53,771 nt of DNA from contig DAHXMJ010000020.1 in NCBI GenBank assembly GCA_027365525.1, positions 1 to 53,771 of the forward strand. The letters run 5' to 3'. Below, in pieces: positions 5,075 to 11,735 of this stretch. The notes beneath the pieces are model-generated. The model made no database searches, had not been told where the DNA came from, and saw nothing but the letters and a program-made list of their open reading frames with translations. A program made the position numbers and the translations under genes. Position 1 is the stretch's first letter; each line of letters opens with the position of its first letter. Source of the stretch: Acidithiobacillus sp. GTDB taxonomy: Bacteria; Pseudomonadota; Gammaproteobacteria; Acidithiobacillales; Acidithiobacillaceae.

Positions 5075-5119
5075 TGGTGCCCAAGGGCGGAATCGAACCA
5101 CCGACACGAGGATTTTCAG
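5075..5119 (-). repeat. Distal att site: 45-bp duplicate of the tRNA-Phe 3' end
   Basis: 44/45 identical to 11660-11704 (mismatch at 5084/11669), same orientation; covers anticodon loop to CCA. Confidence 0.92.
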
Positions 5120-5220
5120 GGGAAAACCACTCCTGTAACGCTCTCGCAGATATACGCAACTAACTGTTTTCAAAAGAAACCGACCGCAGACAAACGCAGT
5201 CGAACGTAACCGGTTCTCCG

Positions 5221-5248
5221 GGTCTCTGACAGAAAAATGTCAGAGACC
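5221..5248. terminator. Perfect 11-bp hairpin near the island's distal end (terminator-like)
   Basis: GGTCTCTGACA-GAAAAA-TGTCAGAGACC. Confidence 0.5.
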
Positions 5249-5464
5249 TTTGCAACCGCAGCATCAGTCTATGACAGATTGTTTGCTGTTCCAACCCAGG
5301 GGGTACGCTGGTCTGTGCGCGCACGGGATGAGCTGTGAGGCGCTCGGAACTCCGCCATAAAATCAGCGTGTCCCTTGGGGATATCGGGCCGGATCAACTA
5401 CAAGACCGCACAGCAAATCCCACCTGAAGTCCGAGACAGCGCAAGCCTATCGGGTAAGCTGTCG

Positions 5465-6217
5465 TTAGCCGGGCACCGTCCAGTCGGCAAGAGATATTTC
5501 CATAAACCGTTCCCCTTCGCTCCGCTCGACAAAGAGCCGTCCATGCACCCTATCGAGCCGGTAGGTCAGAAAGCAATGTACGCCGTTTTCAGTCAGCAGG
5601 TCAGGAGCCAGAACTGCCGCGACAAGGCCACGCGTTCGACGGAGGTCCCTGGCGGAATAGGTAAGGAAGCCCGGCAGCCTGTTTTCATGGGCCTCGTTCC
5701 CCAATGCGCGGCATGGTGCCAGGTTCGTTGGGTGGTCAAAGACTCCAGCGTTTGCAAGTACCTTTGGGCGCAGGTCCAGTAGAAGACCAGTATACGCCAC
5801 CCGGTGGACCCTGCGCTGGCCTTCTACCTGTGGTTCCCTCAAGCTCGCGGCGCTATCCTCAATGTCCTGCCAAAAATAGTAGCCTGTTTCATAAATGGTC
5901 GTTTCCAGGTCCGACCCGCCATACCAGCAACCGAAGTGTCCGTCCGAAAAACGGCTTGCGGCAGGATGTTCGAACGGCCATAGAATAACGTCTGCAATGC
6001 CCACCAGGGCTTCTGCGAACTCAAAGGGTCGTTGCGTAGCCGGCGGAACGGCAGAGTAGGGCTTTACCGCCACTTCGTGTTCGATGAGTATTTGCGCTTC
6101 CTCCTCACTGTCGACCAGAGAGGCAAACAGGCTCCGGCTCCTCCGTAGGGATACAATGTTACGGAACCAGTCACGCTGCGCATCCCTGGTCAATCCCAGT
6201 TCGCTCACAGAAATCAT
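5465..6217 (-). CDS. RES-domain toxin (MbcT/ParT-like)
   Basis: RFSDGHFGCWYGGSDLETTIYETGYYF RES motif region; ATG at 6217 overlaps the upstream antitoxin stop (TGATG). Confidence 0.8.
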   Translation of the reverse strand: MISVSELGLTRDAQRDWFRNIVSLRRSRSLFASLVDSEEEAQILIEHEVAVKPYSAVPPATQRPFEFAEALVGIADVILWPFEHPAASRFSDGHFGCWYGGSDLETTIYETGYYFWQDIEDSAASLREPQVEGQRRVHRVAYTGLLLDLRPKVLANAGVFDHPTNLAPCRALGNEAHENRLPGFLTYSARDLRRTRGLVAAVLAPDLLTENGVHCFLTYRLDRVHGRLFVERSEGERFMEISLADWTVPG

Positions 6218-6636
6218 CAATGCCCTCGCATACGGTCGACCTGTGCGCGAACCATTACGAGGCCTGGCAAGCCATACTCCTGCACCACAGCTACCGGTGA
6301 TCTGCCATGGAAACGCCGGTTGGCAGCACGCATCCATCCGTTTCTAAGGCCTGGATTCTCTGGATACAGAAGCATAAGGCCTTTGTAGATGCCCAGCAGG
6401 TGTCCTGCCCGGTCCAGGAGGTCGCGCGTATTGGCGAGCGGATGTCCTTCCGCGTAGCGCTTCAGGGTGGTACGGCTGTTCCCCCCCAAGCCCAGCAGGA
6501 CCTGCCGCTCGGCGTTGGACAGGCTCCATTCATCGAAGGCACGCATGAGTGCCCTGGCAAGCACAGCACGCCGGTGTTCGTCGGTGCATGCCGGCGCTCC
6601 GGGATTGGCTAACATCCGCTGATCTATGATCTCCAT
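6217..6636 (-). CDS. Xre/MbcA/ParS-family antitoxin (DUF2384-like)
   Basis: LSNAERQVLLGL...DLLDRAGHLLGIYKGLMLLYPENPGLRNGWMRAANRRFHGRSPVAVVQEYGLPGLVMVRAQVD; GGGGGAG SD upstream of the ATG at 6636. Confidence 0.8.
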   Translation of the reverse strand: MEIIDQRMLANPGAPACTDEHRRAVLARALMRAFDEWSLSNAERQVLLGLGGNSRTTLKRYAEGHPLANTRDLLDRAGHLLGIYKGLMLLYPENPGLRNGWMRAANRRFHGRSPVAVVQEYGLPGLVMVRAQVDRMRGH

Positions 6637-6654
6637 ATACAACTCCCCCTGAGT

Positions 6655-9703: not shown

Positions 9704-9880
9704 ATGAGCAAAAAATTGCCACAGTACACCGGGGAATGTCTGGCCGGGTGCGGACTTTTTGGGGACTGCCCTGTTCATCTCGTGGCGCTTCTGATTCCCG
9801 GACTGGGGCTGGTTAGTCCTCCAGATACCGTCTGCCCCTGCCGCTTTTTTGAAATTCCCGGAGGAAGAAAAGGCCGGTGA
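9704..9880 (+). CDS. Hypothetical small Cys-rich protein (58 aa)
   Basis: ATG with GAGGA-type SD; MSKKLPQYTGECLAGCGLFGDCPVHLVALLIPGLGLVSPPDTVCPCRFFEIPGGRKGR; below the size cut-off of the ORF track. Confidence 0.35.
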   Translation: MSKKLPQYTGECLAGCGLFGDCPVHLVALLIPGLGLVSPPDTVCPCRFFEIPGGRKGR

Positions 9881-9926
9881 TAGCCTGCTGGTGTGGATGG
9901 TCCACATACAGCCAGCGAGGTTTACC

Positions 9927-10364
9927 ATGAACACCAGCACACCAGATGCAGCAGCAAAAGCCGCCCGCGATTTCCGTGAAAAATCTCCCGGCGAATTCCG
10001 GCAGGCACATTTTCACCACTGGGTCTTCCAGGAAACCTGGGGCTACGGCCAGGGGCAGGCCGGTGGGGAATTCTTCGGATTTATCAATTTCCGCCAGGAC
10101 GTTTTCTGCCTCCGGGCCACACCGGCCGGCGACTTCTACCAGTACTGGGCTTCCCGGGCCTTTCTCGAAAAAGCCCTGCACCACCGGACCGGATCCGGGA
10201 ACCGCCGGAGCCTGCAGCCCGGACTGGAAACCCTCCTGGATCTATCCGCCTGCGACCCCGGTTTCCTCCAGGCCCTGCCCCACCGGCGGATCCATCCCGG
10301 CACCCTGCTCTGGGAAGGAGAATTCCAGCGGACGTTCTATAATTCCTGGACCCAGGCCGGCTGA
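9927..10364 (+). CDS. Hypothetical island protein (145 aa)
   Basis: MNTSTPDAAAKAARDFREKSPGEFRQAHFHHWVFQETWGYGQG...; likely internal start of ORF 9849..10364. Confidence 0.45.
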   Translation: MNTSTPDAAAKAARDFREKSPGEFRQAHFHHWVFQETWGYGQGQAGGEFFGFINFRQDVFCLRATPAGDFYQYWASRAFLEKALHHRTGSGNRRSLQPGLETLLDLSACDPGFLQALPHRRIHPGTLLWEGEFQRTFYNSWTQAG

Positions 10365-10426
10365 AAGGCAGGGGCCACCCGTTCGGTGGACCCCGCTTCT
10401 GCTGCAGGGAAACGGGATAGCCCGTT

Positions 10427-11569
10427 CTAGGGGCGTCTGCACACCCGGAAAGGAATGATCTTCGCGCCGCCGTCTTCCGGTCCCGTGCTGCTGGAGGAAG
10501 ACGCCTCCGGCCCATTTTGCACCGGCTTCTTCCGGGCCAGGGCCGCATCCAGGCCGGCAACGAGGTTTTCGGTCCGGAGATGGGCATAGCGCTGGGTCAT
10601 CTGCGCACTTCTGTGTCCGGCGATCGCCCGGACCCGGGTATCCGACAGCCCCATTTCCACCGGGGTGCTGACCGCCTCGTGGCGCAGGTCGTGGAAACGG
10701 AGGGACCCCTTCAGTCCCGCCCGCTCCATGGCCGCCCGCCACATCTTGTCCATCGTGTAGGGCCGCCGCTTCCCGTCCCGGCCCAGGTCTCCGGGGAACA
10801 CCAGATCCGTACCTTCCCGGGGACAGGTCTCAATGGCTTCCCGGAAGATTTCCGTAGCCCGGGGGCTCAGGGGAATCGTCCGGGTTTCCTCGTTCTTGGT
10901 GTCCCGGAGGACCGCGGTGCGCCGGTCCAGATGAATGTCCTTCACCCGCACACGGAGAATTTCCATTTTCCGGGCCGCCGTCTCGATCGCCGGCTCCGCC
11001 ACCCAGGCAAGGATGGGATTGCTGTGCTTCCGGACGCTCTCCAGCAGCCGGACCCCCTCGTCCCCTTCCAGACGGCGGTCCCGGGATACGGTTTTCGGCT
11101 TGCGCACCGGCAGGACCGGATTGGCCGGGAGACCCACGTTCCATTCCCGCAGGGCGACAGTGAAAAGATGGGAAAGGAGGGCCAGTTCCAGCCGGACCGA
11201 GGATCCCGACAGCCCCTCCGCCAGCCGGGCATCACAATATTTGCCAATGATCTCTGGCGTCAGGGCCGCAAGGGCGTAGGCGCCGAGACGTTCCTGCAGG
11301 GGTTTCGCGCTGGTGTGGTCGCGGCGCCGGGAACCCTCTTTCTTGCTGGGAGTGACTTCGGCCAGATACCGCTCCAGGGCCACCGCAACGGTAAATTTCT
11401 GCGGGGGGGAACGCCGGATGAAGGTCCCCCGGACCATCTCGTCTTCCATCTGGCGCGACCAGTCTTCCGCGTCCCGCTTGGTCCTGAAGGTTTTGCTGGC
11501 CGTCGGCCATCCCTGCTTGCGCACCAGCGCCTTCCAGGTCCCGGCAGGGGTTTTGACAATCGTAGCCAC
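10427..11569 (-). CDS. Tyrosine-type site-specific recombinase/integrase
   Basis: IETAARKMEIL (box I Arg), HDLRHEAVS (HxxR), AGHRSAQMTQRYAH (GH...Y). Confidence 0.93.
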   Translation of the reverse strand: MATIVKTPAGTWKALVRKQGWPTASKTFRTKRDAEDWSRQMEDEMVRGTFIRRSPPQKFTVAVALERYLAEVTPSKKEGSRRRDHTSAKPLQERLGAYALAALTPEIIGKYCDARLAEGLSGSSVRLELALLSHLFTVALREWNVGLPANPVLPVRKPKTVSRDRRLEGDEGVRLLESVRKHSNPILAWVAEPAIETAARKMEILRVRVKDIHLDRRTAVLRDTKNEETRTIPLSPRATEIFREAIETCPREGTDLVFPGDLGRDGKRRPYTMDKMWRAAMERAGLKGSLRFHDLRHEAVSTPVEMGLSDTRVRAIAGHRSAQMTQRYAHLRTENLVAGLDAALARKKPVQNGPEASSSSSTGPEDGGAKIIPFRVCRRP

Positions 11570-11659
11570 AGGACACCCTCCCTCCGAATCAGCACTGTAC
11601 CGATTCTGTACCGGAAGGACAGGGGACCGTCAAGCAGTATTTCTATCTTGTTGTTTTTC

Positions 11660-11735
11660 TGGTGCCCAGGGGCGGAATCGAACCACCGACACGAGGATTT
11701 TCAGTCCTCTGCTCTACCGACTGAGCTACCTGGGC
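11660..11735 (-). tRNA. tRNA-Phe(GAA), CCA encoded
   Basis: GCCCAGGTAGCTCAGTCGGTAGAGCAGAGGACTGAAAATCCTCGTGTCGGTGGTTCGATTCCGCCCCTGGGCACCA; full cloverleaf with GAA anticodon. Confidence 0.97.

Follow-up and report, generated by a model that had tools for sequence, protein, structure and literature searches.

A small tyrosine recombinase-bearing island at the tRNA-Phe gene of an Acidithiobacillaceae metagenome-assembled genome

How did 6.6 kb of DNA come to lie between an intact tRNA-Phe gene and a displaced copy of its 3' half, and what kind of element is it? The question is raised by positions 5075 to 11735 of the window, the 53,771-nucleotide stretch analyzed here (contig C50). It belongs to the metagenome-assembled genome (MAG; 62% complete, 1.37 Mb) of an acid-loving bacterium related to Acidithiobacillus and placed in the Acidithiobacillaceae. 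Our analysis points to a small genomic island in a tRNA gene (tDNA island) of the integrase-only type, in which a tyrosine recombinase would have inserted a circular form at the anticodon loop of tRNA-Phe. We give this reading a probability of about 0.9. Open reading frames (ORFs) were scanned with Pfam, PADLOC, PHROGs, and NCBIfam, tRNA genes were located with ARAGORN, and RNA families with Rfam. The features that define the unit, including its attachment (att) repeats, are the following.

5075..5119, minus strand: distal attachment repeat, a displaced 3' fragment of tRNA-Phe, 44/45 identical
10427..11569, minus strand: intact tyrosine recombinase (integrase, int) of 380 amino acids (PF00589, E = 7.7e-27; phrog_1, 4e-55)
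11605..11633, minus strand: predicted int promoter, TTGACG-17-TACAGA, from alignment with relatives
11660..11704, minus strand: proximal attachment repeat, tRNA nucleotides 32-76, anticodon loop to CCA
11660..11735, minus strand: intact tRNA-Phe(GAA) (ARAGORN; Rfam RF00005, E = 1.8e-14), the presumed regenerated target, with its CCA end toward the island

The tRNA-Phe(GAA) is the sole tRNA in the window, where Rfam agrees with ARAGORN and returns no other match, and it is 100% identical to the tRNA-Phe of genomes G004, G005, G006, and G010. An earlier note, made from the sequence alone, had described a direct 45-bp duplication of the tRNA 3' end with one mismatch, and we recovered this repeat. 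The only mismatch in the core is an A at 5084 against a G at 11669, and the extended repeat (5069-5119 versus 11654-11704) is identical at 49 of 51 nucleotides (96%), with a spacing of 6,585 bp. A search of the whole MAG found the distal copy at E = 6.5e-17, which excludes chance. A single ORF, 4910-5209, crosses the distal fragment. Because the repeat begins at tRNA nucleotide 32, the crossover is placed at the anticodon loop, a recognized att sublocation in tDNA islands (PMC4383910).

As the same note had claimed, the intact tRNA stands at the integrase-proximal end, and the gene that adjoins it is an intact integrase in which alignment located the catalytic residues R200, H293-x-x-R296, H319, and Y328, in agreement with the R/HxxR/Y residues given there. 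Relatives of this integrase were returned at 80 loci in a scan of genome contigs, with a tRNA just upstream in 73. The closest, 73% identical, belongs to G005, a member of the same genus, and lies beside an identical tRNA-Phe, where the G005 contig stops. Phage integrases were all <60% identical, the best at ~38% among the matches listed. The region between tRNA and int could be aligned for eight relatives, whose sites are tRNA-Phe or tRNAs with a CAT anticodon; they have in common, with small departures, a TTGACA-17 nt-TACAGA box followed one helical turn on by a GGTACAG-like box. In the window, a second GGTACAG box lies 11 bp past TACAGA. This conserved upstream box may be the promoter of int, and sites for the recombinase or an excisionase may overlap it; a generic promoter scan of the window did not return it.

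A plausible course of events can be proposed. A circular form carrying the 3' half of tRNA-Phe would have been recombined with the chromosomal tRNA-Phe at the anticodon loop by the tyrosine recombinase, which is presumably active. The new 3' half supplied by the island would keep the tRNA functional, and the original 3' half would be displaced 6.6 kb away.

Of the attributes by which Islander recognizes tDNA islands (PMC4383910), the locus has each one applied here: an intact tDNA and, downstream of it and oriented alike, a fragment of its 3' end, a tyrosine integrase ORF inside, a length (6,585 bp) within 2-200 kb, and a fragment outside any other tRNA gene. With the site A class of Islander it has in common the displaced 3' fragment, the internal integrase, and the anticodon-loop crossover, whereas its 6.6 kb is smaller than the main peak of 13.6 kbp, and a second att scar, described below, is its own (PMC4383910). 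In Acidithiobacillus caldus, flanked units >5 kb without conjugation genes were classed as genomic islands (GIs), and two of these, GI-1 and GI-5, bear an integrase and lack conjugation genes, like the island in our window; GI-1 carries toxin-antitoxin pairs, and direct repeats of GI-5 are listed as (77,45) (PMC3826726). They differ from it in their sites, tRNA-Arg(TCT) and tRNA-Arg(CCG), in their size of ~10-14 kb, and in their toxin-antitoxin families, and the island table of that study holds no tRNA-Phe element (PMC3826726). Among the island ORFs scanned, we found no relaxase, coupling protein, or type IV secretion system (T4SS) that would mark an integrative and conjugative element (ICE) or an integrative and mobilizable element, and no replication or phage structural gene. 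The earlier statement that relaxase, replication, and conjugation genes are missing thus holds for these ORFs. PF02534 was absent from the MAG as a whole, at its 62% completeness. Judged by its sequence, the locus is a typical, ordinary tDNA genomic island of the anticodon-loop type, a known class with precedents in A. caldus and Islander.

The tRNA-Phe locus was then compared across 29 genomes of the family by searches with the flank on the tRNA side and with the EAL and polX proteins encoded to the left of the distal repeat. The rsmI side of tRNA-Phe is recognizable in 27 of the 29, and the 3' side is variable. A sister genus of Acidithiobacillus species has a conserved block of genes that by eye resemble a membrane protein gene, galE, a thioredoxin gene, and msrA/msrB. 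In G015, 62 nt separate tRNA-Phe from this block; in others the distance to its first gene is 1.6 kb (G016), 3.0 kb (G023), 8.0 kb (G018), and ~11 kb (G008), so that G015 looks like an empty tRNA-Phe site and the other four look filled. Among congeners of the window's genome, three have a second att copy, at a distance of 28 kb (G002), 103 kb (G004), and 146 kb (G007) from tRNA-Phe, and the intervals in G004 and G007 encode a VirD4-type coupling protein. These two intervals are probably an ICE family at tRNA-Phe. Just inside the distal att, G004 (C1:524304-627373) and G007 (C1:2568451-2713746) have near-identical DNA (L084, L085, L126, and L127). On these comparisons, tRNA-Phe is an insertion hotspot across the Acidithiobacillaceae, with contents from 1.5 kb to >100 kb, two of them with VirD4. 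A restriction-modification-like set, HsdR/HsdS-like by eye and without an integrase, was also seen ~0.2-7.6 kb downstream of tRNA-Phe in G003 (C17, L092). Together, the att structure, the integrase family, the int upstream box, the relatives at the same tRNA, and the one empty site in the sister genus make insertion at the tRNA-Phe 3' end well supported.

Several observations weigh against a self-contained island. The earlier note had called for an empty-site comparison; an empty tRNA-Phe site was seen only in the sister-genus genome G015, and an exact site joining 5074 to 11705 was not found among the 29 family genomes. The MAG is only 62% complete. EAL and polX-like genes lie in the left flank, which is also where the contig stops. 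Counting eight congeners (the window's genome and seven others), the polX-like gene is absent from the other seven at the cut-off used (1/8), and a close EAL orthologue occurs elsewhere only in G005 (2/8), with different neighbors. The left flank therefore seems accessory, and the distal att may lie within a larger tandem array. Thus, the claim that the island is self-contained is only partly supported: the flank seems accessory, the contig ends, and the interior is a mosaic.

The alternative that follows most directly is a larger tandem array or reduced ICE at tRNA-Phe, of which the 6.6-kb unit would be the member nearest the tRNA; 5075-5119 would then be an internal att, and the array would run past the contig end via EAL and polX. 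We consider this unlikely, though to be taken seriously. It would accommodate the accessory character of EAL and polX in the genus, and in G004 a broken member of the window's integrase subfamily comes after the att copy that lies at 103 kb from tRNA-Phe, which indicates that arrays do form at this tRNA. However, positions 1-5074 of the window contain neither a further tRNA-Phe fragment nor a second integrase, and the unit itself has no ICE gene. On the G005 contig with the EAL orthologue (L081), an ORF that resembled a MobV relaxase by eye gave no Pfam match.

The small tDNA island favored here carries the following cargo.

5465..6217, minus strand: predicted RES-domain toxin (PF08808, 8e-16); the listed ORF extends to 6337
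6217..6660, minus strand: predicted Xre-type antitoxin (Xre-like HTH, PF20432, 1.2e-9; MbcA/ParS toxin-binding domain, PF09722, 1.5e-7)
6655..7214, plus strand: relic of an AAA+ ATPase, with the Walker A end missing and the rest split over two frames
7449..8618, plus strand: intact SoFic-like Fic protein with Fic_N and Fic domains
8787..8882, plus strand: relict att scar left by another element, with tRNA-Arg(ACG) 3' end followed by a terminator-like hairpin and T-run
9921..10364, plus strand: ORF of 147 amino acids without a family match, with a weak 26% match to an ORF near a related integrase in G021

Domain matches confirmed the RES/Xre, Fic, and decayed AAA+ cargo of the earlier note, with the RES start likely at the ATG at 6217, where it would overlap the stop codon of Xre. 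The two genes are adjacent in one operon, the antitoxin has a C-terminal toxin-binding domain, and PF08808, PF20432, and PF09722 all scored above their cut-offs. The pair is intact, has the usual toxin-antitoxin layout with a stop/start overlap, and is predicted to be a toxin-antitoxin pair, which may stabilize the island as an addiction module. On the strand opposite RES, ORF 5375-5782 gave a weak match below the cut-off. In the AAA+ relic, PF00004 was matched over profile positions 49-111 only, and the second frame matches the following part of the ATPase.

The Fic protein has a complete catalytic motif (HPFLDGNGRLGR; consensus HPFxDGNGRxxR) and an N-terminal SSMIEG inhibitory-helix motif. 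It matched the PADLOC SoFic model at 2.6e-117, SoFic structures in the PDB at 5e-35, and the Fic family phrog_5978 in PHROGs. SoFic, which was reported as an abortive-infection toxin, resembles it in its class II Fic architecture, in an inhibitory motif at the N terminus, and in a catalytic motif that is complete (PMC12249575; PDB entries 3EQX and 3ZCN). Unlike SoFic, the island protein stands without any identified AS1-type antitoxin and falls below the NCBIfam equivalog cut-off (142.4 versus 550 bits), and it is therefore a SoFic-like relative rather than an equivalog. It may likewise act as an abortive-infection toxin. The nearest Fic relatives are 59% identical (G006 and G019) and RES relatives <=39%; none of either was located at tRNA-Phe. 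Among the plasmid matches listed, only the Fic gene matched, at ~67%. No family match of any kind was obtained for ORFs 4396-4695, 4699-5052, 8841-9296, 9146-9688, 9297-9650, and 9921-10364, and an IS3 OrfA fragment suspected near 4738 was unsupported by NCBIfam.

With this cargo in view, a phage satellite packaged by a helper phage seems very improbable. The size, the integrase, and the phrog_5978 match of Fic are compatible with one, but the integrase and Fic gave the only PHROGs matches of note, no gene for phage regulation, replication, packaging, or capsid interference was seen, and phage integrases are distant from that of the island. The earlier suggestion of a satellite or a reduced ICE found no positive evidence, as the unit contains neither phage or conjugation genes nor their remnants; elements on the scale of an ICE occupy the same tRNA in two congeners. 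It is scarcely credible that the distal repeat is a fragment of an old tRNA-Phe duplication unrelated to the integrase. The patchy composition of the cargo (GC 55-64%) and its decayed genes would suit such a history, but the fragment is the exact 3' part expected, 44/45 identical and in the same orientation, with the integrase at the correct end and from a family whose members adjoin tRNA genes at nearly all loci. A metagenome misassembly through the repeat could be imagined for a MAG contig, but is hardly to be believed, as a 45-nt repeat with one mismatch falls below the usual length of reads and assembly k-mers, and G005 independently has the same integrase-tRNA-Phe junction.

The interior of the island records a further insertion. 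The tRNA-Arg(ACG) sites of G003, G006, G008, and G013 match positions 8787-8882 with 76-79% identity across 86-98 nt. An intact tRNA-Arg(ACG) is present elsewhere in the MAG itself, and the sequence downstream of it is different. In G003 (C44, L233:184-6149), 5.8 kb separates an intact tRNA-Arg(ACG) from a displaced fragment, and an integrase match lies close to the distal end of this interval; to judge from this arrangement, it is one more tDNA island of very small size in the genus. Since the displaced fragment in G003 lies as an att scar would, 8787-8882 is taken as the relic of a second, unrelated element. An ICE at tRNA-Arg(ACG) is known in A. caldus (PMC3826726). With this scar and the broken AAA+ gene, the tRNA-Phe island is a mosaic.

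Finally, we considered the integrase family itself. The tRNA labels at the 73 loci are Met (CAT) 50, Leu 8, Phe 6, Thr 6, Lys 2, and Asn 1; some of the CAT tRNAs are presumably Ile2 rather than Met, which ARAGORN does not separate. The integrase tree requires 5 changes for the Phe label and 11 for all labels together. The integrases at tRNA-Phe in G027 (L159:8189-9257) and G024 (L099:1-568) have 94-98% DNA identity with those at CAT-anticodon tRNAs in G025 and G026 (L155 and L156, around 9827-11100). Between G027 and G025 the identity is 97.7% over 950 bp, compared with ~73% for their tRNAs, and the 454 bp available from G024, comprising the promoter and the int N terminus, are 96% identical to G025. 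In this four-genome comparison, which rests on draft or MAG contigs, identity drops only in the tRNA and ~37 bp beside it. We tentatively propose, at somewhat below even odds, that the clade can move to a new target tRNA gene while the protein stays almost the same, the target being set by the carried att core rather than by the protein. The G025/G027 pattern could also stem from elements recombining with each other at the conserved box. Near-identical copies at different tRNA genes make this integrase family mildly unusual. Small islands comparable to that of the window, with the same integrase family and toxin-antitoxin or restriction-modification cargo, are found at CAT tRNAs and favor the main reading: a 5.4-kb island in Paraburkholderia gardini has a PIN-type DUF4411 protein and an HTH/IrrE-peptidase protein, and islands of 10.5-11 kb in Pseudomonas, Halopseudomonas, and Xanthomonas have DNA methylase or restriction-modification genes.

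As no relaxase, T4SS, replication, or phage gene was found in the ORFs examined, the island may move between cells by foreign machinery, such as that of a helper ICE or a helper plasmid, or through transduction or the natural uptake of DNA. The site common to these elements suggests one helper hypothesis, in which an ICE at the same tRNA would move the small island. The locus is one more small example, with clear boundaries, of a class of islands that is well known, and its value is carried by the comparison of the hotspot, which tiny islands have in common with >100-kb elements bearing conjugation genes, and by the apparent target switching of the integrase clade. The latter is the more useful lead, as near-identical natural pairs on different tRNA genes offer a way to test directly how integrases of the anticodon-loop type come to use new targets.

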